Made by a program: the position numbers and the translations under genes. A stretch of DNA of 63,438 nucleotides, taken from the NCBI GenBank assembly GCA_015207195.1, contig JADEXJ010000014.1:1-63438 (forward strand), given 5' to 3'. A model generated the notes under the pieces. The model was not told the origin of the DNA and made no database searches. It saw only the letters and a program-made list of their open reading frames with translations. Below are positions 582 to 35,895 of the stretch, piece after piece; the first letter of the stretch is position 1; each line of letters begins with the position of its first letter. Origin of the DNA: Pleurocapsales cyanobacterium LEGE 10410 (GTDB lineage Bacteria > Cyanobacteriota > Cyanobacteriia > Cyanobacteriales > Xenococcaceae).

Positions 582-1493
582 CTAGGAAACAACCGCTTGG
601 TCAACAGTAGTTTGCAGTGCTGCTATTTCTACATTGCTGCCAACGTTCTTTAATTCTAGAGCGGGATACATTTTAAAGATTGTGTTGGTTAAGACCATGC
701 CTGGACCGATCTCGATCGCCTCTTCTACACCTTCTTGAACCAGGCGAGCGACAATTTCTCGCCAGCGGACTTGACCCGTCATTTGCTGCATCAAACGATC
801 TTTTAGAGTTTGAGCGTCAGTGGTGGGAAGTGGTTCAACGTTGGATAGTACGGGGACTTTTGCCGATTGAAATTTAGTCGCGGATAAAACTTGATTAAAC
901 TCGACCGATACATCTGCCATCAAAGGCGAATGAAAAGCTCCGCTAACTTTGAGAGGAACACTACGCCTAATTTTCACTTTCTCCAAGACTGTATTTACTC
1001 CTTCTGGCGTACCAGAAATTACAATCTGAGCATTGTGGTTGTCGTTGGCGATAACTGCACCGCTGATCTGAGCAATTTCCGCTTCCAGGCGATCGCGATT
1101 AAAGCCAACCAAGGCTACCATTACCCCAGGAGGGGCAGTTGCCATCAATTCTGCTCTGCGCTTAACTAAGCTTAAGCCTGCTTCAAAACCAATAACTCCT
1201 GCTGTATAAAGAGCAGCGTATTCTCCTAAACTATGACCCGCCACTACGGACGGTTCGAGTCCTGCTTCTCGCATCAGGTCTGCCAAAATAGTCGAGATTA
1301 CATATAGGCAGGGCTGAGTATACAGTGTTTGAGATAATTTTGATTCTTCATTAAGACATATTTGAGCTAGATCCCAACCCAAAATCTCTTGAGCTTGTTG
1401 GAATCGAATTTTAGCGGTTGGAACATCAACTAAATCTGCTCCCATGCCCAAAGATTGAGAACCTTGCCCTGGAAACACCCATGCTGTTTTCAT
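582..1493 (-). CDS. fabD: Malonyl-CoA:ACP transacylase (FabD-type)
   Basis: The enzyme moves malonyl groups from CoA to the phosphopantetheine arm of an acyl carrier protein in the cytoplasm. Visible landmarks, numbered from the ATG at 1493, are an N-terminal GQGSQ oxyanion motif, GHSLGEY with nucleophile Ser88, a KRRAELM arginine motif and the GAFHSPLM histidine (His188). The length, 303 aa, fits stand-alone FabD proteins (about 290-310 aa). A TTG one codon earlier is possible, but ATG is preferred. It is read away from the PKS operon that starts at 2753, yet sits at its edge. That position suggests a second, cluster-dedicated transacylase supplying malonyl units to the ACP at 6444. It could also be the housekeeping fabD; whether another copy exists in the genome cannot be seen here. 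Confidence 0.93.
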   Translation of the reverse strand: MKTAWVFPGQGSQSLGMGADLVDVPTAKIRFQQAQEILGWDLAQICLNEESKLSQTLYTQPCLYVISTILADLMREAGLEPSVVAGHSLGEYAALYTAGVIGFEAGLSLVKRRAELMATAPPGVMVALVGFNRDRLEAEIAQISGAVIANDNHNAQIVISGTPEGVNTVLEKVKIRRSVPLKVSGAFHSPLMADVSVEFNQVLSATKFQSAKVPVLSNVEPLPTTDAQTLKDRLMQQMTGQVRWREIVARLVQEGVEEAIEIGPGMVLTNTIFKMYPALELKNVGSNVEIAALQTTVDQAVVS

Positions 1494-1597
1494 CAATTTA
1501 ATTCTTAGTAGTGTTAAGTGGATTCGTTGCTACAAAATCAGGTAGTAAAAGAGTTCTAATAACTATTCGCCCGTCGGTTGGTCTGCACCAATGTTTG

Positions 1598-2077
1598 TCA
1601 ATCATCGACAAGTTGTGAATCGACATTGTTGATGAGATTGATAGTTTCACTAACTAGCGTTACCAAACGCTGATAATCTTGAATACTTTGGCGATCTAGG
1701 GTAGTTCCTTCCCTAGCTTTCAGCCATTTTTGGCAGACGCAGTAGTTGCCCAAGCAGAAGTTCCAAACATCGTTAGGGACATTTTCAAAATATTGTGATT
1801 GGTTAATCCAAACTATTCCTTTGTCGGTATTCTGCTGGGGTTCAATGTAAGAGATCTGCCGTACAGTGTTGTGTCCAGGAACTGGATAGGTGACGATGGT
1901 TGGTACTGGTCGTCTAGAGGAGAATTCTTTAACGTCTGCTGGTTGAGTAATTTCGGTGTGTTTTGATGGCTTTCTTTGTAGAGCAGAAGTTTGCCTCAAA
2001 GGCTTGATAATTTTGTTGGAGCGTTTGTAAAGCTTTCTAATTTTTACTTTGGCTCTAGTTTTAAGTGAGAGTTCCAT
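1598..2077 (-). CDS. Small basic protein with a type ISP restriction-enzyme C-terminal-like domain
   Basis: The protein has about 159 aa. Residues 1-50 are very basic (many K/R) and probably disordered. The last ~85 residues, including WINQSQYF, VPNDVWNFCLGNY, CQKWLKAREG and a closing helix ending ETINLI, resemble by eye the C-terminal specificity segment of type ISP restriction-modification enzymes, which reads roughly VW.F.IGGYQV..KWLK.R. No methyltransferase or helicase part is present, so it is a stand-alone or detached piece. Start ATG at 2077 was chosen over an upstream TTG at 2089. It is co-oriented with the transacylase gene 105 bp downstream. Function is unknown; nucleic-acid binding is only an inference from the charge and the family resemblance. 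Confidence 0.6.
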   Translation of the reverse strand: MELSLKTRAKVKIRKLYKRSNKIIKPLRQTSALQRKPSKHTEITQPADVKEFSSRRPVPTIVTYPVPGHNTVRQISYIEPQQNTDKGIVWINQSQYFENVPNDVWNFCLGNYCVCQKWLKAREGTTLDRQSIQDYQRLVTLVSETINLINNVDSQLVDD

Positions 2078-2752
2078 TTTGAGTGACAAATATTTTTAAA
2101 TTTTTAAATTCTTTTAACTAAGAAGAAGCAGTGACTGTTTTACAGGCAATTAACATTTGGCAGGTATGCTAAAAGATAATCGGAGAAATTTTCAGTCTAG
2201 GTTGTCAACCGTTGTCAACTTACGAGCTAGGGTGTTCGAGCTAGGCAATGGACAGCAGGTTATAAAATTTATCAGATTGATGTTTGCTATCTTTGACCGC
2301 ATCTTGACCCTAGTAAAAGCCAGTTTCCAAAAAACGCTATACTAGTACATACCTCTACGTTCGAGACATAACGAAGTAATCTCTGTGGGCTTTAGATCTT
2401 TAACTTAGCATTGCCGAGTATATTTCCCGTTTGAATAAAGCTCAGAAATTAGCTGTTTTATGCTTGTTTTAAGCATAAGTTGTGTTTAATTTGTTGTTAT
2501 TTGCGGGAGACAGCTAGACAAAAGCAGAAACAATCGATCTTTTTAGCAAAATTAGTCGATTTAACGTCGGGGAACAATTGAGACAGAAAAAATACAAAGT
2601 TTCAACAAAGTTCGTACTTTATTTCTACTCACGCCTCAAAAGAACAGATTAATCTAAATAATAAGCAAACACCAAAACCAATAGATACTGAGCTTCGGCA
2701 AACACCGCAAAGATTGAGTTATCGCAACCGTTGAACATTTTAGGTTTATCCC
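2078..2752. promoter_or_regulatory. Divergent intergenic region upstream of the PKS operon
   Basis: This 675-bp gap separates the minus-strand pair from the plus-strand PKS operon, so promoters for both directions should lie here. I could not assign -35/-10 boxes with confidence. A possible 62-codon frame at 2157-2345 has no recognisable similarity and is not called. The sequence is AT-rich, with no strong hairpin noticed. Confidence 0.4.
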
Positions 2753-3664
2753 ATGACTGCTTCATGTCGTCTCCAAACCCTGTTAGCTGCTGGTCATTTC
2801 GTTATATCTGCGGAATTAACGCCACCACGCCACCATAATATGAAAACATTAATGGCGATCGCTACTAAGCTTCAAGCTTATGTAGATGTTTTACAAATAA
2901 ATGACAATGCCTTAGCGCAAGCTCGATTATCTAATCTGGTCGCTGCTCAATTTGTTTGGCACGCAGGTATTGAGCCAGTGGTTCAGATGACTTTGAGGCA
3001 TCGCAATCGTATTGCTCTCCAAAGCGACCTTTTGGGTCTAGCTGCTTTAGGAATTCGCAATCTGATTATAGTTGGCGGTTATCCCTGTTCGATGGGAACT
3101 GACCCAGAAGCTAAAGATGCTCAAGATCTGAGTACGACAGAAGCGATCGCCGCGATCGACAACTTGACGGTGCGGGGACAGATGTTTAACGGCGACAAAA
3201 TTGCCTACATTCCCGATTTCTTTATGGGAACCGTTGCTTTTACTGAAGTTAAACCAGAAAAATTGGCTGATAGCTTAGACAATATTGAAGCCAAGATCGA
3301 TGGTGGAGCTAAGTTCGTTCAGCTACAGGCAACTTTCGATCTCAAGACCTTAGAAAAATGGATGGCAGAAGCAGTCAAGCGAAATCTGCACCACAAAGCT
3401 TATTTTATTGCAGCTATGTATCCTTTTAAGAGCGAAAAGGAGTTGAATTTGCTCAACAGATTAGCAGGTTTAAACGTTCCCCACTGGCTATTTACTAGGA
3501 TACGCCAACATAAATATGCCAGTTTTCAATTCAATCTAGAATTAATTGCTGGGATTCAAGCTATTGAAGGAATTAGAGGGTTGCACTTTCGCTCGATCCA
3601 TTCTCGTAACTGTATTGCAAAACTGATCGAATCAGCCAAATTACGAGACTCCATCGCTGCGTGA
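2753..3664 (+). CDS. Methylenetetrahydrofolate reductase-like protein (MetF family)
   Basis: The 303-aa protein has the MetF TIM-barrel pattern. An early ELTPPR stands in for the EFFPP glutamate motif. It is followed by LQINDNALAQARLS, then the very typical QMTLRHRNRIALQSDLLG and a glycine-rich LIIVGG strand. The known reaction is FAD-dependent reduction of 5,10-methylene- to 5-methyl-tetrahydrofolate, which feeds methionine and S-adenosylmethionine. It resembles the short MetF forms that lack a regulatory domain. It is the first plus-strand gene before the ketosynthases and sits close to KS alpha (about 90 bp), so it is probably co-transcribed. Inference: a cluster paralogue that supports the methyl supply of the two O-methyltransferases at 33-35 kb, or a repurposed flavoenzyme acting on the polyketide. 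Confidence 0.85.
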   Translation: MTASCRLQTLLAAGHFVISAELTPPRHHNMKTLMAIATKLQAYVDVLQINDNALAQARLSNLVAAQFVWHAGIEPVVQMTLRHRNRIALQSDLLGLAALGIRNLIIVGGYPCSMGTDPEAKDAQDLSTTEAIAAIDNLTVRGQMFNGDKIAYIPDFFMGTVAFTEVKPEKLADSLDNIEAKIDGGAKFVQLQATFDLKTLEKWMAEAVKRNLHHKAYFIAAMYPFKSEKELNLLNRLAGLNVPHWLFTRIRQHKYASFQFNLELIAGIQAIEGIRGLHFRSIHSRNCIAKLIESAKLRDSIAA

Positions 3665-3758
3665 GCTGTTGCCCAATGAAATTATCGGGCGGTCAACGTT
3701 CCGAGGTCTTCTCGAAACTACCCCCATTCAATCTAGTTATTTTTTACCTCAAAAAACC

Positions 3759-5036
3759 ATGAAACGAGTAGTAATTACGGGTATTGGAGTGATCGCTCCT
3801 TTAGGTATTGGCAAAGAACAATTTTGGAAAAATGCCATCCAGGGAGAATCATTTTTAACCGCCGACCCCGAAATGGAGGCAATGGGCATCAAAAGTAATG
3901 TTTTGTGCCGAGTCCTAGATTTCGATCTGTCGAACCATAGTTCTGGAGCAGAATTCGAGCATTTAATCGAACAAGACCGCGTAGTGCAGTTTGGGGTTTG
4001 TGCGGGTAAAATGGCTTGGGAAGATTCGGGACTCAATATCGAGCAAGAAGACCGTGAACTGGTAGGAACTATCTATTCTTCGGCAATTGGCGGTACTCCT
4101 TATATTCAAAAGATCTACGAACAGTGTACTAATCGAGGTACGGAAGAGATCGCTCACGTACAGACGGGAGAAAACTTCTATAACGCAGGGATGTTTAATT
4201 ATTCTGCTGCTTTGTTGGCACGCAAGTATAATTTTCAGGGTCACTGCACCTCTCTTTCCACTGGCTGTACTGCTGGGCTAGATGCTTTGGGCTTGAGCTT
4301 TGAACTAATTCAGTCGGGAGAAATGGATGTAATGGTTGCAGGAGCAACCGAAGCACCTCTAACCAGCCTGACTTACGCTACTCTAGATGTAATTGGCTCA
4401 CTGTCCGTAGCCGATTGCGAACCCGAAAAAGCCTCTCGTCCTTTTGATGCTAAACGTGGTGGCTTTGTAATTGGAGAAGCTGCTGCGGTTTTGGTCTTGG
4501 AAGAGTTAGATCATGCTCTAGCCAGAGGAGCGCATATCTATGCGGAGGTAGTTAGCTACTCTAGCGTTAGTAACGCCTTCCACATGACCGACCTGCCCGA
4601 CCACGGTATTCCGATGGCAGCAGTGGTTAGAAAGGTGATGGAGTCGGGACGGGTTGCCCCACAAGAACTAGACTACATTAACGCTCACGGCAGTTCGACA
4701 CCGCAAAATGACGTTTTTGAAACTAATGCTTACAAAACCGTCTTGGGAGACCAAGCCTATCAGGTGCCGATTAGCTCTACCAAATCGATGATCGGACACT
4801 CCCTTTCTTCGGCGAGTTTGGTTGGGGTGGTGGCTACTTTAGGCGCGATCGAACTTTCTACGATTCATCCTACCGCTAACTACGAAGTACCCGATCCAAT
4901 TTGCGACCTCGACTATGTGCCAAACGTTGCTAGGGAACAGGAAGTAAATACCGCGATGTTAACTGCTTCGGGTTTTGGCGGAATTCACTCAGCAGCAATT
5001 CTCCGTAAGGTGAAGCCAGAAGCTACGGCTGCTTGA
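3759..5036 (+). CDS. Type II PKS ketosynthase alpha (KS-alpha)
   Basis: This is the condensing subunit that elongates the ACP-bound poly-beta-ketone, working as a heterodimer with the chain-length factor encoded next. The start is ATG 3759, which gives 425 aa and the standard opening MKRVVITGIGVIAPLG; an in-frame TTG at 3669 would add 30 non-conserved residues. The full catalytic triad is visible: Cys170 in LSTGCTAGLDALG, His310 in NAHGSST and His347 in KSMIGHSLS. The sequence around Cys170 and the QND motif after NAHG are those of aromatic type II KS-alpha proteins rather than FabF. Spacing, synteny with CLF and ACP, and the close match to actinobacterial KS-alpha motifs make the call firm. 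Type II sets of this kind are, to my knowledge, uncommon in cyanobacteria. Confidence 0.95.
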   Translation: MKRVVITGIGVIAPLGIGKEQFWKNAIQGESFLTADPEMEAMGIKSNVLCRVLDFDLSNHSSGAEFEHLIEQDRVVQFGVCAGKMAWEDSGLNIEQEDRELVGTIYSSAIGGTPYIQKIYEQCTNRGTEEIAHVQTGENFYNAGMFNYSAALLARKYNFQGHCTSLSTGCTAGLDALGLSFELIQSGEMDVMVAGATEAPLTSLTYATLDVIGSLSVADCEPEKASRPFDAKRGGFVIGEAAAVLVLEELDHALARGAHIYAEVVSYSSVSNAFHMTDLPDHGIPMAAVVRKVMESGRVAPQELDYINAHGSSTPQNDVFETNAYKTVLGDQAYQVPISSTKSMIGHSLSSASLVGVVATLGAIELSTIHPTANYEVPDPICDLDYVPNVAREQEVNTAMLTASGFGGIHSAAILRKVKPEATAA

Positions 5037-5046
5037 GAACAATTAA

Positions 5047-5117
5047 GGTGGGCAAAACATCAATCTCAAGATTTGAAATCTCAAGATTTGAGATCTCAAG
5101 ATTCAAATTTGCCCACC
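5047..5117. repeat. Inverted GGTGGGCAAA repeat enclosing three 15-bp direct repeats
   Basis: GGTGGGCAAA (5047-5056) pairs with TTTGCCCACC (5108-5117). Between them lie three near-identical 15-mers beginning TCTCAAGAT at 5064, 5079 and 5094. The element fills the KS-alpha/CLF spacer, where translational coupling would normally be tight. Related GGTGGGCA hairpins occur at 59147 and 63076, so this is a dispersed genomic repeat, not a gene-specific structure. Confidence 0.85.
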
Positions 5118-5152
5118 CTACAAGGGAATTAAATCAATATATTACTACAAAG

Positions 5153-6367
5153 ATGACAGATAAAAAACGGGTAGTCGTTACGGGAATCGGAGTTGTCAAT
5201 CCATCGGGGATTGGTAAAGACCAGTTCTGGCAAAATATGACTGAAGGAAACTCGGCGATTCGAGAAATCGATCGCTTCGATCCGACTAATTTTCCCACCA
5301 AAGTAGCAGGAGCGGTTTCTGACTTTAAGCCTGGGGACTTTATTCCCCGCCGTCTGGTGGTTAAGACCGATCGCTTTACCCACTATGCCCTAGCAGCTAG
5401 CGATCTAGCTTTGGCAGATGCAGACCTCGATTTAGAACAAGAAGATTCTTATCGCGTCGGAGTTTGGTTTGGTAACAACGCTGGCGGTTGGGATATTTGC
5501 GAACGAGGTTTTAAAGAGCTATACAACGATGGTGCGACCATGGTTAACCCGTGGCAGGCTACCGCCTGGTTTCCCACCGCTGCTCAAGGTTACGTAACTA
5601 TTCGCTACGGCATTCGTGGCTATAGTAAGAGCTTTGTTTGCGATCGCGCTAGTGGTGCAAGCGGTCTGTATTTTGGCGTAAAGTCAATTCAGCAGGGACA
5701 CAACGACGTAGTGTTAACGGGAGGCTCGGAAGCTCCTATTACCCGCTTTGGCATGGTTTGCTATTACGAAACTGGAGAAATTAGTGGTGCGGAGAATCCC
5801 GACACCGCCTATCAGCCTTTTGACCGCGAGCGTTCGGGCATTGTCTTGGGTGAAGGCAGTACTGTCTTAGTTCTAGAGTCGGAAGAACACGCTCTAGCTC
5901 GTGGGGCAAAGATTTATGGTGAAGTAACTTCGGGGAGCATGACCACCGATATCAGTCCCAGTTCTGGGATTCACTTTAAGCGGGCGATGAATAAAGCCCT
6001 CAAAAATGCAGATCTGACTCCCAAAGATATTGACGTGGTGTTTGCAGAAGGCTGCGGTACTCAGACGGGCGATCGCGTTGAGGCAGAGGCGATCGATGCC
6101 GTGTTTGGCGAAACCGCCCCAGAAGTACCAGTTACCGTACCTAAATCTCTTTTCGGTCATCTTTATGGTGCTAGCTGTACGACCGAGGTTGCCTGTAGCC
6201 TGTTAGCCATGGAAACTGGCAAATTACCCGTAATGCAGTCAGTCAATCCTGATGAGGGGTGCAGGCTAAATTTTGTTACCCAGGCTCAATCTCGTCCCGT
6301 GGCTCGGACGTTGGTTAATTCCCGCGCTCGCGAAGGGGTCAACGCTTCCTTTGTGATTAGCAAGTAG
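5153..6367 (+). CDS. Type II PKS chain-length factor (KS-beta)
   Basis: This non-catalytic partner of KS-alpha sets polyketide length in the dimer. It begins at ATG 5153 (404 aa, MTDKKRVVVTGIGVVNPSG); the open frame reaches back to 5033, but that extension is encoded by the inverted repeat. It has the KS fold (TGGSEAP, ERSGIVLGEG, KSLFGHLYG) but lacks the active-site cysteine. The aligned position is Gly168, in DRASGASGLYFG, and the first catalytic histidine is replaced by Glu299 in FAEGCGT. Most actinobacterial CLFs carry Gln at the cysteine position, so Gly is unusual. The stop codon is part of an STRR repeat (AGCAAGTAGCAAGTAA). Confidence 0.93.
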   Translation: MTDKKRVVVTGIGVVNPSGIGKDQFWQNMTEGNSAIREIDRFDPTNFPTKVAGAVSDFKPGDFIPRRLVVKTDRFTHYALAASDLALADADLDLEQEDSYRVGVWFGNNAGGWDICERGFKELYNDGATMVNPWQATAWFPTAAQGYVTIRYGIRGYSKSFVCDRASGASGLYFGVKSIQQGHNDVVLTGGSEAPITRFGMVCYYETGEISGAENPDTAYQPFDRERSGIVLGEGSTVLVLESEEHALARGAKIYGEVTSGSMTTDISPSSGIHFKRAMNKALKNADLTPKDIDVVFAEGCGTQTGDRVEAEAIDAVFGETAPEVPVTVPKSLFGHLYGASCTTEVACSLLAMETGKLPVMQSVNPDEGCRLNFVTQAQSRPVARTLVNSRAREGVNASFVISK

Positions 6368-6430
6368 CAAGTAATCCACTTATTACTTCTTACTTCTTAC
6401 TTGCTACTCCCTACTTATTACTTTCTTACC
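6360..6430. repeat. STRR-type heptamer repeats after the CLF stop
   Basis: Degenerate units of the AAGTAGC/TTACTTC type fill the CLF-ACP gap and include the CLF stop codon. Similar arrays recur after many genes in this window. Confidence 0.8.
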
Positions 6431-6443
6431 CGTGAGGTGACAA

Positions 6444-6749
6444 ATGATCGATCCAGCATTAAAAGACGTTTTGACGGATCTTGGTTTTGAGGAAGACGAA
6501 CTTACCGATACTGCCTCAATCCGCCAAGATTTACAGCTTGATTCAACCGAAACCGTTGATATTTCTTTAGGACTAAAAAGACGTTTGGGAGTCAACATCA
6601 AACTTGAATCTCGCCAAGATATGACCTTAGCCGAAGTTAGTGAAAAAATTGCTCAAGCTGTTGCTCAATCTAGTCCCGACCAGAATGATTATGTTGAAAC
6701 TAAAACGCCAGTCACATCTCAAACCGCGAACCCTGTTCAACAGAAATAG
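6444..6749 (+). CDS. Acyl carrier protein of the type II PKS
   Basis: The protein has 101 aa: a four-helix ACP core of about 80 residues plus a polar C-terminal tail rich in Q, T and P. The phosphopantetheine attachment serine is Ser34 in LQLDSTETVDIS. The motif is DST, not the usual DSL. A good ribosome binding site (GAGGTGA) precedes the ATG. It carries the growing chain between the transacylase, KS/CLF and cyclases in the cytoplasm. It is followed by its likely activating enzyme, an AcpS-type transferase. The order KS-CLF-ACP-PPTase-CoA ligase recalls, from general knowledge, the anthraquinone type II cluster of Photorhabdus more than the Streptomyces layouts. Confidence 0.92.
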   Translation: MIDPALKDVLTDLGFEEDELTDTASIRQDLQLDSTETVDISLGLKRRLGVNIKLESRQDMTLAEVSEKIAQAVAQSSPDQNDYVETKTPVTSQTANPVQQK

Positions 6750-6849
6750 CACCAACCAAAGCAGCTGCCTAAAAGTCAGTAAAATCAATAAACATAAAGT
6801 AGTAAAGCTATCAACTCATTGTCCGCCTTCCTCTGAATCCACTAAGAAA

Positions 6850-7218
6850 ATGGGAATGGGTCTTGGCATAGACATTGCCTCTATTGACCGAATTACTCAA
6901 CTGATCGATCGCTATGACCGAGAAACCTTAAACTTCTTATTTACTTTTGGCGAGATCGACCGCTCGTTATCAACCAAAAATCCCTATCAAAAGTTTGCCG
7001 TCTGTTTTGCTGCCAAAGAAGCAGTGGGTAAAGCTTTGGGAACTGGACTGGCTGGCATTGACTGGCACGAAATAGAAGCATTTGTTTCCGATTTTCAGTT
7101 AAGCGTCAGGCTTTATGGAAAAGCCAAATTTCAAGCAGCCAAACTGGGTTATACCAACTGGAACGCTAGCTGGTCGAGCTGTAATGACTATGTTCTAGTT
7201 CAAGTTCTTGCTTGCTGA
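6850..7218 (+). CDS. Holo-ACP synthase (AcpS-type phosphopantetheinyl transferase)
   Basis: The enzyme transfers 4'-phosphopantetheine from CoA to the ACP serine, with Mg2+. The start at ATG 6850 gives 122 aa, the normal AcpS size. The upstream open frame to 6640 overlaps the ACP gene in another frame and is not conserved-looking. Motifs are GLGIDIASIDRI (the Asp metal ligand near the N-terminus) and CFAAKEAVGKALG (the KE...K signature). It is flanked by the ACP (100 bp upstream) and the CoA ligase (19 bp downstream), so a dedicated activator of the PKS ACP is the natural reading. Confidence 0.9.
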   Translation: MGMGLGIDIASIDRITQLIDRYDRETLNFLFTFGEIDRSLSTKNPYQKFAVCFAAKEAVGKALGTGLAGIDWHEIEAFVSDFQLSVRLYGKAKFQAAKLGYTNWNASWSSCNDYVLVQVLAC

Positions 7219-7237
7219 ATACCTCTAAGAGAAAGCC

Positions 7238-8809
7238 ATGAATCCACTCTATCAACAACTGCCAAGTATTTTTAATATTGCAGCTTACTTTCTTAAAGCC
7301 AGCCTCAATCAAGAAAATGGCGAAAGAGTTTCCTTTTACTATCAAGATGAAGCCTACAGCTATCGCAAGGTCAATGAGGAAGTCTGTCATGCAGCAGGAT
7401 TACTATCAGAACTTGGTTTAGAACGAGAAAACCGCGTTGCGATTTTGTTACCCGATAGCCCCGATTTGGTTTTTGCCTTCTGGGGTGCAATTTGGATGGG
7501 TGCAATTCCCGTTCCGATCAATACTGCTTGTAAACTTGAGGATATTCAATATATCCTGCAAGATTGTCGGGCGAAGATCTTAATTACCGATCGCGCCTGG
7601 TGTGAGCAACTGTTCCCCGATGGTAACACCGAAGATTTTGAATTTTTGCGTCAGGTGCTGCTTACCGACGGCGAAGATTCCTTGAGCCAGCGGTTGAGCC
7701 AAATAAACACAGTACCTACCCCAGCCCCTACCTCCCCCGACGAACCAGCGTTTTGGCTCTATACTTCTGGCAGCACTGGCAGACCCAAGGGTGTTGTCCA
7801 CCTCCATCGCAGTATGGCAGTCTGCGCTCAAGAATATGCCCAAGCAACCATTGGACTCAAACCAGACGATATTGTCTATTCAGTAGCTAAAGTTCCGTTT
7901 GCCTATGGTTTGGGTAACACCCTATATATGCCAATGGCAGTGGGGGCAGCTTCAGTCCTGACTGATGCTAACAATGTCTTTGATATTATTGCCGATCTCA
8001 ATCGCTATCGTCCCACGGTTCTATTTGCGATTCCTGCAATTTATTCGGGGATTCTCGCAGTGCAAGAAATCGCCCCTCTAGATGCTAGTTCCTTGAGACT
8101 TTGTGTCTCCGCAGCCGAACAGCTACCTAAAAGCGTCTGGCATAAATGGCACAATACCTTTGGTTTAGAGGTTTGTGAGGGCATCGGTACCAGCGAATTT
8201 CTGCACATTTTCTTATCCAACCGTTCGGGAGAATGTCGCCCTGGTAGCTGTGGCAAGCCAGTTCCAGGTTATGACGTACGGATTGTTGATGACCGCGGTT
8301 TTGACTTACCCAGAGGCGAAATTGGCAATCTTCAGGTAGAGGGGGCGAGTTTGATGCTGCAATATTGGAACCGCCACCGCGAAACCAGAGAGGTTATCTA
8401 CGGCAATACCATGCGGACAGGAGATAAATATCTTTGCGATGAGGATGGTTACTTCTTCTTTATGGGTCGTAAAGATGACCTGTTTAAAGTTAGCGGACAG
8501 TGGGTATCCCCCTTTGAAATTGAAGATGTTTTGCTCCAGCACGAAGCGGTTTTAGAAGCTGCGATCGTTCCCGAATCGGATGGCGGTCAGAACCTAACTC
8601 AGGTAGTGGCATATATCACTCTCAAGTCTGGTTTTGAAGAGTCGAGGCAGCTAAAAGATAGCCTACGTAAATTTGTTCGTACTAACTTACCTTCTTTCAA
8701 AGCCCCAAAAACAATTCACTTCTTAGATCGCCTACCCCGTACTTCCACAGGCAAAATTCATCGTAAATCTTTGCTCAAGGCTCGTCAGTTAGTGAAACCA
8801 AGTAATTAA
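7238..8809 (+). CDS. Benzoate-CoA ligase family adenylating enzyme (probable salicyl-CoA ligase)
   Basis: An ANL-superfamily ligase of 523 aa. Its core motifs are LYTSGSTGRPKGVVH (ATP loop), the benzoate-ligase-like FAYGLGNTLYMP, GIGTSEFLHIFLSNR, RTGDKY and the C-terminal catalytic lysine in PRTSTGKIHR. These motifs fit benzoate/hydroxybenzoate-CoA ligases rather than fatty acyl or amino acid activators. It would convert an aryl acid plus ATP and CoA to aryl-CoA and AMP. The salicylate synthase homologue at 11427 in the same operon points to salicylate as the acid. Inference: it loads the aromatic starter unit of the polyketide. Benzoate or another hydroxybenzoate cannot be excluded without modelling the pocket. 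Confidence 0.88.
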   Translation: MNPLYQQLPSIFNIAAYFLKASLNQENGERVSFYYQDEAYSYRKVNEEVCHAAGLLSELGLERENRVAILLPDSPDLVFAFWGAIWMGAIPVPINTACKLEDIQYILQDCRAKILITDRAWCEQLFPDGNTEDFEFLRQVLLTDGEDSLSQRLSQINTVPTPAPTSPDEPAFWLYTSGSTGRPKGVVHLHRSMAVCAQEYAQATIGLKPDDIVYSVAKVPFAYGLGNTLYMPMAVGAASVLTDANNVFDIIADLNRYRPTVLFAIPAIYSGILAVQEIAPLDASSLRLCVSAAEQLPKSVWHKWHNTFGLEVCEGIGTSEFLHIFLSNRSGECRPGSCGKPVPGYDVRIVDDRGFDLPRGEIGNLQVEGASLMLQYWNRHRETREVIYGNTMRTGDKYLCDEDGYFFFMGRKDDLFKVSGQWVSPFEIEDVLLQHEAVLEAAIVPESDGGQNLTQVVAYITLKSGFEESRQLKDSLRKFVRTNLPSFKAPKTIHFLDRLPRTSTGKIHRKSLLKARQLVKPSN

Positions 8810-27534: not shown

Positions 27535-27541
27535 ATCTCTT

Positions 27542-29043: not shown

Positions 29044-29084
29044 ATCCTTGAAGGAACAAGATTGTGGTTGTGTGTGACTAAAAA

Positions 29085-30671
29085 TTAAACGAAATCTGAA
29101 GGACTAATTACGCTGGCATCTACTTCGTATAGAGAAGCCAGTACTTCTCCCGTAGAGGATAGGCTAATTTCGGTATTATCATCCTGTTGTGAAATGTTCA
29201 GATGGCTGAATTGCACATCTCCATAAAGAGAAAGCTTATCTACTCCATTAACATAATCGAGAATCAGATCCTCACCGCGACCCGATGTAATCTTGAAGAT
29301 ATCAGCATCAGCACCACCGACTAGAGTATCATGACCTTTACCACCTTTGAGAATATCGTCTCCCTCACCGCCCCGTAGAATATCCTTGCCTCTACCACCT
29401 AAGAGGGTATCATTGCCCAAACCTCCAACAATGAGGTCTTTGCCACCTTTTCCATCAATATGATTGTTGCCCGAATCGCCGTATAGGCGATCGTGTTTAC
29501 GAGTGGGATTAGAGATAGGGTCGGCGCGGAAAATAGCAAAAGTGCCGTCTTCGAGTCGAGCCTGAACAGCAACTTGACCCAAATCGTTAAATGCTTCTTG
29601 AACAAATGTAATTTCCCCAACCGTAGAGCCAGCAATTTCATCACCCACCGAAGCAACCCGCGTAATGCCAAGTTCTGATGCCACATAGATTCCCGCACTG
29701 CCATCATCTAGTTCGGCATAGAATGCCACTTCTCCATTGTTGTTAAGAGCGGTTTCAGAACTAAAAAAGTCAAACTTTCCACTATCGTCTACTAACAGTT
29801 CTGTCTCTCCATAACTATTAGTATAAATACCACGGGTACCATCATCCCGTTGTACTAAAAAGGCAGTCGTTCCTTCGTCGTTAAGGTCGGGATAGCTAAA
29901 GAGATCGAATTCACCCTCGCTGTTGGCAACTTCAGTAATTGTCTCACCATCGCCGACAAAGATTCCCTGTCCTCCAGCATCCAAACCAGCGTTAAATGCC
30001 ACCTCATCATGTTCATTGAGAGCGGGAGAAATATCCAACGAGGTTATCGGACCGTCACCACCAAGAACATCCAAACTAACGTCAAAGCTGCTAAAAATAC
30101 CGTCGGTGGAGGCAATTTCTGTAGTCTCACCATCACTAAGAGTATAAATCCCCGAAGTTACAGGGAAATCAACTGGCACATTTAAAAAATTTCCTGCTGC
30201 ATAGGAAATTGTTCCGCGATTGTTAAGATTGACTCCAGCAAAAGCGTTGAATGCGTCGGTACTTTCTAAGACAACGACTGGTTCTTGTTCGCCATCACCA
30301 ACTTGAATCGTAATTCTGTCAAACTGGATAATCGGTTCACCGTTCTCATCCAAAACTGGTGCGCCATTTTCATCGGTCAAGAGACTGGTTTCACTCTGAA
30401 TAAAAGCAGCTTGTCCGAGGTCGTTGATTGACGGTTCAAAAACAGGCTTAAACTCTCCTGTAGTCAAAAATGCCTCGCTATTGTCGATAAAAGTTCCCGT
30501 CGAAACATCATCTTGATAGTTGTTGGCATAAAATATAGCGAAAGGAGGCAGCTCGGGACTAAGAAAACCTTCAAAAGCAACGTCACTTCTTTCATTGATT
30601 ACGCCAGCAGTAAAAGAAGTGAAAGGAGGGGCAATAAAGCTAGATACTTGAGTAAAATCAAACTTATTCAT
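29085..30671 (-). CDS. Secreted beta-propeller-like repeat protein with C-terminal RTX calcium-binding repeats
   Basis: 528 aa. Residues about 10-400 consist of repeated units of the type LN..G.VAF.A.LDDGS.GIYV..GE, about seven copies, like the DUF7453 repeats. Residues 410-470 have classical RTX nonapeptides (GGKGKDILRGG, GGEGDDILKGG). No Sec signal is visible, as expected of type I secretion substrates. It sits between the two MFS/P450 segments in the same orientation. A cell-surface or extracellular Ca2+-dependent protein is the safest description; a link to the polyketide is unproven. It ends at a good terminator. Confidence 0.8.
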   Translation of the reverse strand: MNKFDFTQVSSFIAPPFTSFTAGVINERSDVAFEGFLSPELPPFAIFYANNYQDDVSTGTFIDNSEAFLTTGEFKPVFEPSINDLGQAAFIQSETSLLTDENGAPVLDENGEPIIQFDRITIQVGDGEQEPVVVLESTDAFNAFAGVNLNNRGTISYAAGNFLNVPVDFPVTSGIYTLSDGETTEIASTDGIFSSFDVSLDVLGGDGPITSLDISPALNEHDEVAFNAGLDAGGQGIFVGDGETITEVANSEGEFDLFSYPDLNDEGTTAFLVQRDDGTRGIYTNSYGETELLVDDSGKFDFFSSETALNNNGEVAFYAELDDGSAGIYVASELGITRVASVGDEIAGSTVGEITFVQEAFNDLGQVAVQARLEDGTFAIFRADPISNPTRKHDRLYGDSGNNHIDGKGGKDLIVGGLGNDTLLGGRGKDILRGGEGDDILKGGKGHDTLVGGADADIFKITSGRGEDLILDYVNGVDKLSLYGDVQFSHLNISQQDDNTEISLSSTGEVLASLYEVDASVISPSDFV

Positions 30672-31756
30672 GGTTAGTGGAAATAGAGTTAATAAATGCG
30701 ATCTGCAAGGTTAGTTACAAAGTATCGGTCGGGTTGGACAAAGAGCGATACAACATCAAAGAATAATTAATATGTTGTCGAAATAACTGGCTAGCTAGAG
30801 TTACAGAAATTCCAGAAAACGATGATTTTCATTTGATAATTGATAAGATTGAGACGACAAGGTTCAGCTTTATTTCGTGTGAATTACTGAAAACTTGCTA
30901 ACAAATTCTAGTTACGCGCATTGAGTTAAGATTGGATTTTCTAAGTGACAAGGCTCAAATTGCGTTCAAAATCATAGTAAAATTTGAGCAAATTATACTG
31001 ATAGGAAAACTTAGATAGTAATCTCAGAACATCAATCAAAAAATAGTTTTGGTTCGATCAATTACGACTTACCAAACAAATAACCTGATAACTTTAAGAG
31101 CCTATTAAAACTGTATAAAATTACAAATTACTGAGAGATTTTGTCGAGTGGGATCGAGAGAAAACGACAAAACCTACTACGACTATTGGTCAAGCATCAA
31201 CTAAATTTTTTTTTCGATAAACTTTACAGAAGCTTGACATATTTATCACTCTACAATCAAGTACTTTCACTGAAGTTCATCCAAACTTCATCATCTGCCT
31301 GCATGTGGCTCGACCGTAGCCCACACGCTTTGCGCTCTGAGCGTCGATCAAACGAAACTAATCAGCTGACAAACTGTTGATTATGATTAATGGGTCACTG
31401 GTGCTGGTTCATCTGCATATAAAACTTGCGAATTAATTATGTACTACAAAATTTGTATCATGTAAATTTAAGGTCTGAGGTGGATAAAAGACTAAAAATC
31501 AAATGAGTTATGTGTGTTTTATGTATGCTTTATGGTTTATGATTGAGCATTTTGTGATTCGATCCTTATTAGTTTCACAGCTTAAATCTACAAAATTAAG
31601 ACAATTCTTCGACATAACTTAGACAAAACCTATTGAGTAAAATCCAGATTGTCTGTTTGGTTTGCACTGCTGGATTAACTCATGAGTATGAGTGGTACAC
31701 AAAGAAAAACGGGCGTTGCTGAATTGTAATGATTCAATCGAGCAAGAACAGTGATA
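30672..31756. other. Intergenic region between RTX and P450 genes
   Basis: About 1.1 kb, AT-rich, with no convincing gene. A 79-codon plus-strand frame at 31141-31380 is low-complexity and unsupported. The promoter of the RTX gene should lie near 30672-30800. Confidence 0.5.
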
Positions 31757-31788
31757 CAAAAAAACGATATGAATTGAATTCATATCGT
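31757..31788 (-). terminator. Terminator of the P450 operon
   Basis: A perfect palindrome, ACGATATGAATT then G then AATTCATATCGT (31764-31788). On the minus strand it is followed by a seven-T run (plus-strand A's at 31758-31764). It lies about 90 bp past the P450 stop and should end the ABM-OMT-OMT-P450 transcript. Confidence 0.8.
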
Positions 31789-31880
31789 CTCAGATTCTAA
31801 ATTAACTTTAATTGTACCGACCTACTTACTTGCGTAGACCTTCAACCTTTTTTCCTTTGATAGTAATTGAATGAGTAGTA

Positions 31881-33245
31881 TTACTCTGGTACTGATTCTG
31901 CAAGGGCATGTAAACTTACCTCAAGATCCTCCTGTACCTTGGAAGGCTCGTAAACTGGAGCAATAGCACTTTTCTCTGGAGCTATTTTCCAGTCATAGTT
32001 GCGCAGCAGCAAAGACATAAAAATCTTCATTTCCATTTGAGCAAACTGATAGCCCAGACAAACATGAGGACCACTGCCAAAACCGACTAGGGCAAAAGGA
32101 TGCTGTTTATCTTCTTCGCGAGGCGGGGCAAAGCGATCTGGATCAAAGCGATCGGGATCGGCATATAGTTCTGGCAGGCGGTGAGTCAACAATGGCGACA
32201 CATCTACCATCCATCCCTTAGGAATCCGATAGCCATCATACTCAATATCTTCCAGGACTCCGCGAGAAATATTCTGTACGGGAGGATAGAGTCTTTCTAC
32301 TTCTTTAAGGGCATAGCCAAGCTGGGTCATCTGTTTTAAGTGAGATAGTTGCAAGGGTTCATCCCCTACTACCTCAGCTTGTTCGTTTAACAAACGCTCT
32401 TTCCAAGCGGGATTGGCATCTAATTCGAACAGTAGCCAGGAAATTAGCACGGCTGGATTTTCGTGTCCTGCAAATAAGACCATCAATAGCTGGTCGATGA
32501 TTTCAGTATCGCTTAAGGGTTCGCCGTTTTCGGTAACAGAAGCCAGAAATAAACCCAAAAAGTCTTGAGAAGCTCCTAAATCGCCATTTTTACGCCTTTT
32601 ATCAATCTTTTTCTGTAAAAAAGCCTTGAGCTTACGACGCGCTCCCTGAGAACGTCCGTAAAGAGTAAAAGGTAGATCGATATGTATCCGCGCTCTACGT
32701 CCCACTAACATAGTCAGAAAATGCTTGAGTGCTTCCCCAAACTCTTCTGGGGTTTCTACGCCAATAATTAAGCGTAATGCCACCGTTACAGAAAATTCCG
32801 TAAAACTGTCGATCGCCCCTAGAGTTTCTCCCGTGGCTTTTTCGCTCAGAAAGTCCTGAGAAATCTCGTCTATGGTAGCAAAATAATTATTAAGTGCCTG
32901 TCCGTGCATCGCTGGGTGCATCAGCTTGCGGGTTGCTTTGTGTTGTTTGCCATCCTGGAGTAACAATCCCGTACCAAAGATCGGCTTGAGAAATACCCAC
33001 CCTTGTCCTGCGGATAGACAATCTGCTTTATCTTTCAGCACCAGGCGGTTAGCTTCAGGACCAATTAAAAAAGCAAACTTTTTGCCAAAGATGCGCGACT
33101 TAAAAATCGAACCATAACGCTCTAGACGCTGGCGATAGAACATCTCTTCTCCCGAAAAGAGTTCCTCTGTCTCGCCTTTGGAACCACCAAAGCTGCCTGG
33201 CATTTCTTCGGCAGACTTAAGCTGCGCTCGTTGTTGCAATACCAT
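31881..33245 (-). CDS. Cytochrome P450
   Basis: 454 aa with all heme-thiolate landmarks: the I helix FAGHENPAVLISW (258-270), ExxR in KEVERLYPP (E315, R318), the PERF-like FDPDRFAPP and the cysteine loop FALVGFGSGPHVCLG with Cys396. Unusually, the conserved I-helix threonine position is Asn263, followed by Pro. Similar Thr-to-Asn changes are known from aryl-coupling P450s of glycopeptide pathways. It is the last gene of a four-gene minus-strand operon with the ABM and two methyltransferases. Hydroxylation, ether formation or phenol coupling of the aromatic product are possible. The spacer before its ATG is repeat sequence without a clear ribosome binding site. Confidence 0.93.
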   Translation of the reverse strand: MVLQQRAQLKSAEEMPGSFGGSKGETEELFSGEEMFYRQRLERYGSIFKSRIFGKKFAFLIGPEANRLVLKDKADCLSAGQGWVFLKPIFGTGLLLQDGKQHKATRKLMHPAMHGQALNNYFATIDEISQDFLSEKATGETLGAIDSFTEFSVTVALRLIIGVETPEEFGEALKHFLTMLVGRRARIHIDLPFTLYGRSQGARRKLKAFLQKKIDKRRKNGDLGASQDFLGLFLASVTENGEPLSDTEIIDQLLMVLFAGHENPAVLISWLLFELDANPAWKERLLNEQAEVVGDEPLQLSHLKQMTQLGYALKEVERLYPPVQNISRGVLEDIEYDGYRIPKGWMVDVSPLLTHRLPELYADPDRFDPDRFAPPREEDKQHPFALVGFGSGPHVCLGYQFAQMEMKIFMSLLLRNYDWKIAPEKSAIAPVYEPSKVQEDLEVSLHALAESVPE

Positions 33246-33279
33246 TTACTTATTATTTGTTACTTATTATTTATTACTT

Positions 33280-34338
33280 TTAAACAGGTACAGCCTCGAT
33301 GATGCTGTTAGCAGTTTGGGTAGGAATAATTCGGCTAACCTCAAAACCAGCTTTGGTTAGTAAATCGCGATATTCTTCTGCTTTGCGTTCTCGTCCACCA
33401 GGAGTTGTCAACAAAGATTCGATATCGATCAACTTACCGACGAAAGGTTCGTTACCTTCGGGCAGAATCATTTCCACCAGCAACAGCTTTCCTGTATCAG
33501 TTATTCCCTGACGGCAGTTTTGTAGTATTTTAATTGCCCGTTCATCATCCCAGTTATGGATCGTGAACATCAAAATATATGTATCCCCACCGCTAGGAAC
33601 GGTTTTGACACATTCCCCAGCCACCAGTTCACAGCGATCGCTCAACCCCGCCTGTTCGATGGCTGGTTTGGCAGCAGCGATCGCACTTTCAAAATCAAAT
33701 AAAATTCCCTTCATCTGTGGATGAGCTTTGAGGAGGGGGATTAGGGTACTTCCCGCCCCCGCAAAGATCCCCAACTCTACTACTGTCTTGGTGTCGGAAA
33801 AATCGTAGTTGGTTAGCAGAGAATTAGATGCCCGACTGGAGATGCTAACTTTAGAATCACTGGCTGTTTTTGCTGCTTCGGGATCGAGATAGAAATCAAA
33901 TAATCCCTGTCCGAAAAGATGGTCGAAGGCAGGTTTGCCAGTTTCAATGCTGTAGGGTAATTCTCCCCAAACTTCCCAATGCCAGTCTTGACCGAGAAAT
34001 TTAATCGCATCGCGGAGTGAACCAGGAGTATCGCCCCGCAAAAATTCCGCAGGAGGAGTCAATTTAAATTTACCTTCATCTTCGGCAAAGATACCTACGC
34101 TAGCCAGCGATCGCATTACTCGATAGAGAGATTGTTCGTGGGCTTCGGTTGCTTGAGCTAGTTCGGCAACACTTTTTGGTTCGTCTGCTAATAAATCTGC
34201 TATGCCCAATTCGGCAACGACATAGATAATTCTGGCAACCCGAAAGCCACCCAAAAATCGTAACATGGCGATTGGTGGGGGAACATTAGGCAAAACTTTA
34301 GCCTGTTGTCCCTTAGGCGCATCTGTAGTAGTTGTCAC
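33280..34338 (-). CDS. SAM-dependent O-methyltransferase (ASMT-like) 1
   Basis: 352 aa. The N-terminal winged-helix dimerisation domain (ELGIADLLADEPKSVAELAQ) is followed by the SAM-binding VVELGIFAGAGS and the catalytic-base motif TIHNWDDERA. It belongs to the class of plant-type/actinobacterial O-methyltransferases acting on phenols. It shares an operon with a paralogue at 34482 (clear similarity over the length), so two phenolic positions may be methylated. The methyl donor would come from the SAM cycle, to which the MetF-like gene at 2753 may contribute. Confidence 0.9.
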   Translation of the reverse strand: MTTTTDAPKGQQAKVLPNVPPPIAMLRFLGGFRVARIIYVVAELGIADLLADEPKSVAELAQATEAHEQSLYRVMRSLASVGIFAEDEGKFKLTPPAEFLRGDTPGSLRDAIKFLGQDWHWEVWGELPYSIETGKPAFDHLFGQGLFDFYLDPEAAKTASDSKVSISSRASNSLLTNYDFSDTKTVVELGIFAGAGSTLIPLLKAHPQMKGILFDFESAIAAAKPAIEQAGLSDRCELVAGECVKTVPSGGDTYILMFTIHNWDDERAIKILQNCRQGITDTGKLLLVEMILPEGNEPFVGKLIDIESLLTTPGGRERKAEEYRDLLTKAGFEVSRIIPTQTANSIIEAVPV

Positions 34339-34481
34339 GTTTGCTCCAATTTATGTTTGTATAGATAACTTGTTTGTGGATCTCAAAAGCAACAAGTAAA
34401 ATACGCTTGATTGCGAATATGTAGATAAGCCAAGGAATACTTGCAAATCGCAGCAACTTATTACTTATTACTTATTACTTC

Positions 34482-35549
34482 CTAAACTGGTATAGCTTCA
34501 ATAATGCTCATCGGTGATTTGGTAGGAATGATTCGGGTAGTTTCAAACCCTGCTTGGCTCAACAGTTGACCATACTCTTCTGCCGTACGTTCGATCGCCC
34601 CAGGAGTCATAATCATCGCTTCCACGTCTAAAATCTTTGCCAAAGAAGGTTCGTTACCAGGAGGCACGATCATTTCCACAATCAACAGCTTACCGTTGTC
34701 GGCGATCGCCTGACGGAGATTGCTCAAGATCAAACCCACCTTTTCGTCGTCATAATCGTGGATTAAATTCTTGACGATATAGGCATCTCCCCCAGCAGAA
34801 ACGGACTCAAAAAAGTCTCCGCCAGCTAATTCGCAACGCTCCCCAACGGATTTATCCTCAACTGTCCCTTTAGCATTTTCTAAACGGGCGGAAGTATCAA
34901 AATAAATTCCCGTTACCCCTGGGTTTTGTTGCAGTATGGTTGCGAGCAATTCCCCATCTCCCTGTCCGCCAGTGGCAAGATCGACAACCTGCTTAAAACC
35001 AGAAAAGTCATAGCTGTCTAAGATCGAGCGATCGCTTAAGGTCAACGCCCCTTTCATGGCTGCATCGAAGTTTTTCGCATCCTCTGGGTGCTGCTCGTAG
35101 TAATCTTCAAAACTCATGCCATATACGGCTTCAAAGGCAGATTCCCCAGTTTTGACGCTATGTAAAATATCTTTCCACATTTGCCAGTGCCACTGCGCTC
35201 CCATTACCGTAGCATAGCCCCGCAGAGAACCAGGAGCATCAGTCTTTAATAAAGCAGCTCTAGGGGTCAAGCGAAATTTTTGTGCTTCTATCTCGGCAAA
35301 AATATCAAAACTGGCAAGAGTTCTTAATAAGCGATATAATGATTGCGGATCGCTTTTGGTTTCTTGTGCTAACTCTACAACACTCCTTGGTCGCTCCGCG
35401 AGCAAATCAGCTATTCCTAGCTGTGCTGCTACCGAAATGTTTTGCGTCAAACGGTAAGCATTCATCATTTGCAGGATCTGAACCTGCGGTGGCATTCCCT
35501 TAGGTTGAGGCGGTGCTGACTGTGGTTTGTTCGGTTTGGCTATAGTCAT
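34482..35549 (-). CDS. SAM-dependent O-methyltransferase (ASMT-like) 2
   Basis: 355 aa from ATG 35549, which starts 2 bp after the ABM stop; an upstream in-frame start at 35603 would overlap the ABM gene. It has an N-terminal dimerisation helix set (QLGIADLLAERPRSVVELAQ), the SAM motif VVDLATGGQGDGE, catalytic LIHDYDDEK and a C-terminal family ending ETTRIIPTKSP. It is paralogous to the gene at 33280. The 3' end is embedded in an AAGTAAT repeat, which supplies the stop. Confidence 0.9.
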   Translation of the reverse strand: MTIAKPNKPQSAPPQPKGMPPQVQILQMMNAYRLTQNISVAAQLGIADLLAERPRSVVELAQETKSDPQSLYRLLRTLASFDIFAEIEAQKFRLTPRAALLKTDAPGSLRGYATVMGAQWHWQMWKDILHSVKTGESAFEAVYGMSFEDYYEQHPEDAKNFDAAMKGALTLSDRSILDSYDFSGFKQVVDLATGGQGDGELLATILQQNPGVTGIYFDTSARLENAKGTVEDKSVGERCELAGGDFFESVSAGGDAYIVKNLIHDYDDEKVGLILSNLRQAIADNGKLLIVEMIVPPGNEPSLAKILDVEAMIMTPGAIERTAEEYGQLLSQAGFETTRIIPTKSPMSIIEAIPV

Positions 35550-35550
35550 A

Positions 35551-35895
35551 TTATGAATGTTTGGTGTAGCAAACTTCGTAGAGTACGGGAGAAGATTCAG
35601 CAATTTTACCGATCTTAGGCATGTGTTCTAGGGCAGTGGGATTTTGAAAAATGGCACGAAAGTCTTCTACGCTTTTCCACTGGGCATAGTTAGTTACCCA
35701 TTCTCCATCCAAACTTTTGTGGATATTGGCACTAATGAAGCCAGGTAGTTTTGCCATAGCATCTTCGGTTGCTTCAACCAGCATATCTACCAATAGCTGT
35801 TGATTTTCTGGCTTGACCTTGAAAACATTAACTAAAGTAACTAAGTCTGCATCTACAGAAATTGTTGCTTTTTGCTCTGTCGAAATCGCACTCAT
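35551..35895 (-). CDS. ABM-superfamily monooxygenase (ActVA-Orf6-like)
   Basis: 114 aa, one antibiotic biosynthesis monooxygenase domain: VTLVNVFKVKPENQQLL at the start, then LPGFISANIH and VTNYAQWKS. These dimeric cofactor-free enzymes oxidise aromatic polyketides, for example forming quinones. It is the first gene of a minus-strand operon and has an AGAGGAAAA ribosome binding site. It fits a late oxidation step of the PKS product. Confidence 0.88.
   Translation of the reverse strand: MSAISTEQKATISVDADLVTLVNVFKVKPENQQLLVDMLVEATEDAMAKLPGFISANIHKSLDGEWVTNYAQWKSVEDFRAIFQNPTALEHMPKIGKIAESSPVLYEVCYTKHS

Follow-up and report, generated by a model that had tools for sequence, protein, structure and literature searches.

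Type II polyketide synthases (PKSs) with paired ketosynthase (KS) and chain length factor (CLF) subunits are recorded in 14 phyla that include the cyanobacteria (PMC10132072). In Gloeocapsa sp. PCC 7428, the minimal PKS (KS-CLF and acyl carrier protein, ACP) of the gloPKS cluster was expressed and reconstituted in vitro, where KS-CLF used 11 malonyl units to build salicyl-primed C29 products and also gave acetate-primed products, and the ligase of the cluster loads salicylate onto engineered holo-gloACP (PMC11744666). The same study likens gloPKS to the thermorubin cluster of Laceyella sacchari, and gloACP and the thermorubin starter are mentioned in PMC12391972 and PMC12664062. Here, a stretch of 63,438 nucleotides from Pleurocapsales cyanobacterium LEGE 10410 (the window; contig JADEXJ010000014.1, assembly GCA_015207195.1) was analysed, which carries a type II PKS cluster and, on the opposite strand, a gene for the YjdF protein. 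Gene content, catalytic residues, phylogeny, synteny and the co-occurrence of YjdF with the PKS were established directly.

The polyketide synthase core and its relatives

The core of the cluster is a plus-strand run at 2753-14790 from an MTHFR-like to a PanE-like gene, followed by a TPR and an MFS gene. The genes of the core and its immediate flanks are:

582-1496, minus strand: FabD-type malonyl-CoA:ACP transacylase (TIGR00128, 302.3 bits, cut-off 260.9)
2753-3664, plus strand: divergent methylenetetrahydrofolate reductase (MTHFR) family protein (PF02219, 89.5 bits, cut-off 24; below the NCBIfam MTHFR cut-offs)
3759-5036, plus strand: KS-alpha (KSα; PF00109/PF02801)
5153-6367, plus strand: CLF, or KS-beta (PF00109/PF02801)
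6444-6749, plus strand: ACP (DST motif, Ser34)
6850-7218, plus strand: AcpS-type phosphopantetheinyl transferase (PPTase; PF01648; TIGR00556, 57.2, cut-off 45.35)
7238-8809, plus strand: predicted aryl-CoA (salicylate/benzoate) ligase (benzoate-CoA ligase family TIGR02262, 507.9, cut-off 375.25)
9001-9402, plus strand: cupin, putative cyclase (PF07883)
9466-9801, plus strand: CMD-like protein (PF02627)
9695-10567, plus strand: PF04199 cyclase (127.8 bits)
10805-11299, plus strand: TcmN-like aromatase/cyclase (SRPBCC; PF03364, 41.2, cut-off 23.4)
11427-12758, plus strand: salicylate synthase (TIGR03494, 348.7, equivalog cut-off 325.15)
12867-13655, plus strand: alpha/beta hydrolase (PF00561)
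13786-14790, plus strand: ketopantoate-reductase-like (PanE-like) oxidoreductase (NF004887, 400.7, cut-off 360)
14900-15799, plus strand: TPR protein, a recurrent neighbour (10 of 11 comparator loci)
15858-17108, plus strand: MFS_3 exporter (PF05977; also in the genomes G406, G070 and G498)

The likeliest start codons, judged from homologues and spacing, are ATG 3759 for KSα (replacing TTG 3669 of the mechanical open reading frame), ATG 5153 for CLF (replacing TTG 5033) and ATG 27534 for YjdF. Every gene named in an earlier note on this DNA (FabD, KSα, CLF, ACP, AcpS, cupin, cyclase, TcmN-like, CMD, ABM, P450, two O-methyltransferases and a halogenase) was recovered by Pfam and NCBIfam scans of the open reading frames of the window. 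The scans added the MTHFR-like, CoA ligase, salicylate synthase, hydrolase and PanE-like genes, the MFS gene at 15858, a tripartite efflux set, an MFS-YjdF pair, a NACHT gene and a second PPTase. The own-genome search found two FabD copies above the cut-off (the second at G000:C248), and a FabD gene adjoins the cluster in G406, G070 and G498.

The gene order MTHFR-KS-CLF-ACP-PPTase-ligase-cupin-CMD-cyclase-SRPBCC-salicylate synthase-hydrolase-PanE is the same as in gloPKS of PCC 7428 (G441 of the comparison, identified by 3,000 compared bases that are 100% identical to the 204,466-bp plasmid of that strain). The identities to gloPKS are 81% for KSα and 76% for CLF, and gloPKS likewise has NACHT, TPR and YjdF genes nearby. 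By its sequence, the cluster is real, intact-looking and orthologous to the partly characterised gloPKS. It is probably a further case of the salicylate-primed gloPKS/thermorubin type, a kind already known because PCC 7428 has the same operon order and its enzymes give salicyl-primed C29 products in vitro (PMC11744666); the published description of thermorubin shares the salicylate starter, the C29 chain and a type II PKS (PMC11744666; for the starter also PMC12664062). None of the loci retrieved was identified as Laceyella. The earlier note had allowed that the same cluster might already be characterised, and this holds in part: the orthologous minimal PKS of PCC 7428 has been reconstituted (PMC11744666).

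The KSα triad is intact (Cys170, His310 and His347, counted on the 425-aa form). In CLF, Arg stands in for the Cys, where three Streptomyces CLFs have Gln, and Glu stands in for the first His. The discrete ACP carries the Ser attachment site, and its Gln31, Ser34 and Thr35 are the residues published for gloACP (PMC11744666). In a FastTree phylogeny of KS-type proteins, the KSα of 12 cyanobacterial and five Bacillota clusters formed one group (support 1.0) that is joined by three Streptomyces KSα (SH-like support 0.994), and the CLFs of the same clusters grouped at 0.998 and with Streptomyces CLF at 0.971. To enter the tree, a match had to span at least 330 query residues (L113, the own locus, yielded none); G498, L023 and L024 are not part of it. 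The FabF of the own genome and four Bacillota KS fell outside both groups; the latter come from 398 genomes drawn from the phylum of G674, which apart from G674 itself held KS of 38-43% identity, and the four placed in the tree grouped with FabF. The best PDB sequence matches of KSα were 6smo, which we take to be the Photorhabdus anthraquinone KS, then the FabF-type 4ls5/4ls6 and the actinorhodin KSα 1tqy_A. The tree thus rules out a FabF or fatty acid synthase origin of the KS pair, the placement that the earlier note had named as contradicting its claim of a type II aromatic PKS in a cyanobacterium, and that claim stands: on sequence grounds the locus is a true type II aromatic PKS, and an aromatic product is predicted.

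The starter genes had been overlooked in the earlier note. Salicyl priming is predicted because a salicylate synthase, whose best PDB matches are MbtI-type salicylate synthases, and a benzoate-CoA-ligase-family enzyme both lie in the operon, and the starter is very probably salicylate.

A search for KSα (E ≤1e-110) found it in 11 of the 388 genomes drawn from the order, including the own genome and one decayed copy, and in 3 of 386 genomes of a phylum draw, again including the own genome. The rarity assumed in the earlier note is therefore real and only moderate, cyanobacterial KS-CLF pairs being known already. Named contigs were scanned with two peptide patterns, and the 16 loci recovered included Stenomitos frigidus, Phormidesmis priestleyi, Gloeocapsopsis crepidinum, a Myxosarcina and a Chroococcidiopsidaceae metagenome-assembled genome, all at 78-94%; because only two patterns were used the scan under-samples the relatives, and PCC 7428 is not among its loci. 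Synteny was compared in 11 cyanobacterial loci, keeping the best match per query and locus and removing overlapping weaker matches; G641, of which only 4.3 kb containing KSα and CLF were read, was left out. The order KS-CLF-ACP-PPTase-ligase-cupin-CMD-cyclase-SRPBCC-salicylate synthase-hydrolase is kept in 10 of the 11 loci, so that the cluster is beyond chance. The MTHFR-like gene is present in 9, the alpha/beta hydrolase in all 11, the PanE-like gene in 8 and the TPR gene in 10. The exception is a decayed copy in G498, a genome of the same genus (contig C20, about 27100-30500, in L059), where parts of the MTHFR-like, KSα and salicylate synthase genes remain, the first two in one open frame, and where the genes between KSα and the salicylate synthase gave no match.

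Related cores lie on Bacillota plasmids. The Priestia megaterium YC4-R4 plasmid (L026) and Staphylococcus saccharolyticus p13T0028 (L028) have the same core order as the window, Priestia with a riboswitch and YjdF and Staphylococcus with a salicylate synthase. Unlike the window, both carry ferritin-like, SAM-methyltransferase and TrmH-type genes, whose proteins have no match in the cyanobacterial loci. The Apilactobacillus kunkeei pPKS plasmid (L027; KSα 49%, CLF 43%), which codes for a putative polyketide antibiotic (PMC9648514), has ACP, ligase, cupin, CMD, cyclase, SRPBCC and YjdF genes in one run; it differs from the window in having a SAM methyltransferase in the run, no salicylate synthase match in the 24 kb read and no tailoring arm. 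One weak match was set aside (31%, Apilactobacillus SAM-methyltransferase query in G498). A salicylate-primed aromatic polyketide core is thus common to cyanobacteria and mobile Bacillota plasmids.

For this strain, starter use, chain length, ring folding, tailoring, export and the role of YjdF are predicted from sequence. The salicylate synthase would convert chorismate to salicylate, which the aryl-CoA ligase would activate for loading onto the PPTase-armed ACP. KSα-CLF would add malonyl units supplied through FabD, by orthology about 11 units to give a C29 chain, and the cupin, SRPBCC and PF04199 proteins would fold the chain into fused aromatic rings. Decoration may follow by the P450, the O-methyltransferases, ABM and perhaps the flavin halogenase, and export by the MFS and tripartite pumps; YjdF, encoded directly downstream of an MFS gene, would protect the producer from a planar aromatic product. 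We consider this full pathway, run by a salicylate-primed type II PKS that is an orthologue of gloPKS, the likely reading of the locus.

YjdF beside aromatic polyketide clusters

The association of YjdF with the cluster is new here and is the most valuable lead from the locus. The YjdF gene begins 7 nt after the stop codon of an MFS_1 gene, and the same pair occurs in G406 and G070:

27118-27534, minus strand: YjdF (DUF2992; PF11208, 129.7, cut-off 23.8)
27542-28738, minus strand: MFS_1 exporter, upstream partner of YjdF (PF07690, 159.4)

The function and natural ligand of YjdF were stated as unknown in 2016 and 2024 (PMC4793209, PMC10987639), its function is likewise called unknown in PMC7266159, and a DUF2992 gene is listed in PMC7513527. 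The described yjdF riboswitch/YjdF system concerns the same family, PF11208, and its ligands are planar polycyclic compounds (PMC4793209, PMC10987639); unlike in those systems, YjdF in the window directly follows an MFS gene, and no riboswitch, which is a usual but not an obligatory companion of YjdF, was found in the window. The 2016 authors proposed that YjdF detoxifies planar compounds, which fits self-protection of a producer (PMC4793209). The word 'polyketide' turned up in neither PMC4793209 nor PMC10987639, and a search of open-access papers, whose hits by their titles concern work on Bacillus strains, gave no earlier statement of a link between YjdF and polyketides. The last 35 residues of the YjdF in the window are 40% Lys/Arg, and a Lys/Arg-rich end is described for the family (PMC4793209). 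A PDB search gave no convincing relative (best E 0.092), a single-sequence structure model was poor (predicted local distance difference test, pLDDT, 61.8; predicted template modelling score, pTM, 0.28), and no relatives were confirmed in viral contigs.

Within the order, YjdF was found in nine of the 388 genomes, and each of these nine belongs to the 11 that have KSα (the two order draws are of the same size, share handles and were taken as one draw). For this co-occurrence, which spans four genera, the hypergeometric p value is 1.1e-16 when genomes are counted and 2.5e-7 when genera are counted; both values assume that genomes or genera are independent, an assumption that does not hold. In six of the nine (G000, G406, G419, G430, G441 and G453), YjdF and KSα share a contig and are less than 25 kb apart; in the other three, YjdF is on another contig, and that of G070 carries the arm described below. 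Beyond the order draw, YjdF is 12-13 kb from KSα in Stenomitos. The phylum draw held YjdF in 4 of 373 genomes, three of them with KSα, an approximate comparison as KSα was searched in a draw of 386 genomes. Among Bacillota plasmid clusters, YjdF is present in three of four lineages (Priestia, Lactobacillus gasseri and the one Apilactobacillus record read), and in Priestia an azaaromatic (yjdF) riboswitch lies just before it (RF01764, 82.6 bits, cut-off 45).

Because YjdF co-occurs with KSα and sits in three Bacillota clusters, that of Priestia behind a riboswitch, aromatic polyketides are testable candidate ligands of YjdF and its riboswitch. The association thus offers a concrete ligand class, which gives it more weight than the cluster itself. 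A more specific proposal is tentative and rather unlikely to hold as a whole: YjdF would serve specifically to handle large planar aromatic polyketides or to protect the cell from its own, and the yjdF riboswitch would have as its natural ligands the type II polyketides that, like those of thermorubin and gloPKS, start from salicylate. Producers would then carry YjdF together with the cluster, and Bacillota that do not produce such compounds would carry riboswitch-controlled YjdF as a defence against neighbours that do.

Several observations weigh against the protective role of YjdF in the proposed pathway. Two KSα genomes have no YjdF, namely G498 with its decayed cluster and G641 (as read from its absence among the nine order-draw matches), and G020 has YjdF without a KSα match. 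The Phormidesmis YjdF lies about 160 kb from the cluster, the Staphylococcus plasmid cluster lacks YjdF, and none was found on a 10.6-kb Lapidilactobacillus contig. The riboswitch was found in one of six loci scanned (Priestia), and no Rfam riboswitch was found in the window. In B. subtilis, a yjdF knockout left the sensitivity to the compounds tested unchanged (PMC4793209). Furthermore, 28 plasmid records have YjdF and 15 have this CLF, but a single record has both. The other 27 YjdF records, four of which were read in detail and hold resistance-like or mobile cargo, suggest that YjdF could merely travel along or act in drug resistance at large, unconnected to the polyketide in particular. 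This alternative is plausible and is given somewhat less than even weight, since YjdF co-occurs almost exclusively with KSα in four genera of the order, recurs in three Bacillota plasmid clusters and is absent from G498, where the cluster has decayed.

On those four plasmids (L121-L124), no PKS genes were present in the stretch read, and YjdF has as its neighbours, depending on the plasmid, a macrolide glycosyltransferase and GNATs, MarR and an ABC ATPase, an integrase or an aminoglycoside phosphotransferase. The YjdF gene of G020 is located on contig C15 (L114, about 10269); this 2.2-Mb genome belongs to the same phylum but not to the order.

The putative tailoring arm and the halogenase

The minus-strand arm (20579-35895) contains the MFS-YjdF pair and the following genes:

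20579-22225, minus strand: OEP of the tripartite efflux set (family scan)
22404-23168, minus strand: ABC ATPase of the same set (family scan)
23122-24282, minus strand: FtsX permease of the same set (family scan)
24313-25500, minus strand: HlyD of the same set (family scan)
25531-26781, minus strand: flavin-dependent (Trp_halogenase-type) halogenase (PF04820, 120.5)
29085-30671, minus strand: NxxGxxAF/RTX-repeat protein (PF24251, PF00353; TIGR05002)
31881-33245, minus strand: cytochrome P450 (PF00067, 243.9; FGSGPHVCLG)
33280-34338, minus strand: O-methyltransferase 1 (PF00891, Methyltransf_2)
34482-35603, minus strand: O-methyltransferase 2 (PF00891, Methyltransf_2)
35551-35895, minus strand: ABM monooxygenase/cyclase (PF03992)

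The arm keeps its gene order in two genomes of the same genus, G406, where it travels with the core, and G070, where it lies on a contig of its own (C85). The P450, both O-methyltransferases and ABM are also near the core in Stenomitos and partly so in Phormidesmis, and the tripartite efflux set is conserved in G406, G498 and contig C85 of G070. In the same contig of G070, a ferric-reductase-like flavoprotein that has no best-matching window protein lies beside the P450 (L102, 11248-12612).

The halogenase is absent from G406 and G070, the two nearest arm-bearing relatives: in G070 about 230 bp separate HlyD from YjdF, with no halogenase between them, and HlyD likewise adjoins YjdF in G406. 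The protein carries GGGPAG at 15, Lys75/76 and GWIWVIP at 220, as in what we take to be the halogenase signature (GxGxxG, active-site Lys, GWxWxIP), and its best PDB matches are 8zop ('Halogenase'), 3e1t and CmlS 3i3l. Within the genus, 3 of 13 genomes gave matches: the own genome, an 89% fragment in G554 (on a short stretch, possibly cut by the assembly) and a 37% relative in G569. No such KSα was found in G554 in the order draw, evidence against the halogenase being firmly bound to the PKS. The halogenase as a fixed part of the arm was ruled out, given its absence from G070 and G406 and the 3 matches in 13 genomes.

Action of the halogenase, P450 and O-methyltransferases on the product of this PKS is a prediction, and the proposed pathway is further weakened by the untied halogenase and by the PCC 7428 locus. 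In the 55 kb read there, the P450, O-methyltransferases, ABM, halogenase, OEP, FtsX and HlyD had no match, and the ABC ATPase only one of 34%; the tailoring genes of the window are thus not found at the studied cluster, and the link of the arm to the product rests on synteny in G406, G070, Stenomitos and, partly, Phormidesmis. The plus-strand PKS and the minus-strand arm with its P450, O-methyltransferases, ABM, halogenase and pumps might therefore be two neighbouring pathways, the latter for another metabolite. In line with this, five further loci (G430, G419, G005, G453 and G530) gave no match to the P450, the O-methyltransferases or ABM in the 20-55 kb that were read around each core, the halogenase fragment occurs in a genome without this KSα, and an IS701-type transposase remnant (19885-20313; score under the curated cut-offs) and a 388-aa protein (17878-19044; no Pfam or NCBIfam match) stand between the two arms. 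The conserved arm in G406 and G070 and the four genes near the core in Stenomitos make two pathways unlikely, as does the nature of the genes: ABM proteins and O-methyltransferases often serve as tailoring enzymes in type II pathways.

The salicylate module, other recurrent genes and flanking features

The closest matches to the salicylate synthase of the window in the plasmid collection, each with a ligase beside it, are in siderophore-like clusters on Pseudanabaena and Chroococcidiopsis plasmids (synthase 62-65%, ligase 60-64% identical), whereas the pair of the Staphylococcus plasmid cluster is 31% and 27% identical. On these values, it was ruled out that the set came from Bacillota as a single block, and since the synthase and ligase are nearer to the cyanobacterial siderophore clusters, the PKS core and the salicylate module look to have been exchanged separately. 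The two cyanobacterial plasmids (L116, L117) carry a salicylate synthase, an aryl-CoA ligase, a nonribosomal peptide synthetase and a type I PKS, that of Pseudanabaena also a TonB siderophore receptor, and they likely encode salicylate siderophores.

In the salicylate-primed reading, the product is predicted, and the ligase is assigned by family, its salicylate specificity being likewise a prediction. These siderophore-like matches and the acetate-primed products of the gloPKS minimal system (PMC11744666) would allow a different or mixed starter, with the salicylate pair serving a siderophore elsewhere and the PKS acetate- or benzoyl-primed, but this is quite improbable given that 10 of 11 comparator loci have both synthase and ligase complete within the operon and that the orthologous ligase loads salicylate onto engineered gloACP (PMC11744666).

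The MTHFR-like protein scores 89 bits, compared with 203 and 168 for the two other MTHFRs of the genome. Nine of ten aligned cluster copies have GGYP and one has GGSS where the two other MTHFRs have TGDP, so that the Asp of the GDP loop, which is presumably near flavin/folate in MTHFR, has been lost. Because of this loss and its divergence, the protein may be a flavoprotein that has taken on another role. Both the Priestia and the Staphylococcus cluster have at their flank a gene for a TrmH-type methyltransferase, which for Priestia was shown to be of the SpoU family; these proteins had no match in the other loci compared, and the gene would fit a ribosome-directed product in these two clusters.

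Two further genes lie to the right of the arm:

37217-39601, plus strand: NACHT protein, recurrent neighbour, possibly regulatory (PF05729)
39713-40120, plus strand: second PPTase (PF01648; TIGR00556, 46.5, cut-off 45.35)

Of the 11 comparator genomes, 10 have their best NACHT match at the cluster or on the contig that carries the arm. In PCC 7428, nine neighbouring proteins were scanned, of which seven belong to glycosyltransferase/polysaccharide families, one to a cellulase family and one to no family. At the left edge of the window are two CyVA-1 RNAs (51-129 and 262-340, minus strand; RF02965, 67 bits each), and short degenerate heptamer-like tandem repeats lie between YjdF and the halogenase (26960-27110). 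Downstream of the cluster are a Kir-type potassium channel gene (43555-44487) and a phosphoketolase-like gene (56942-59140).

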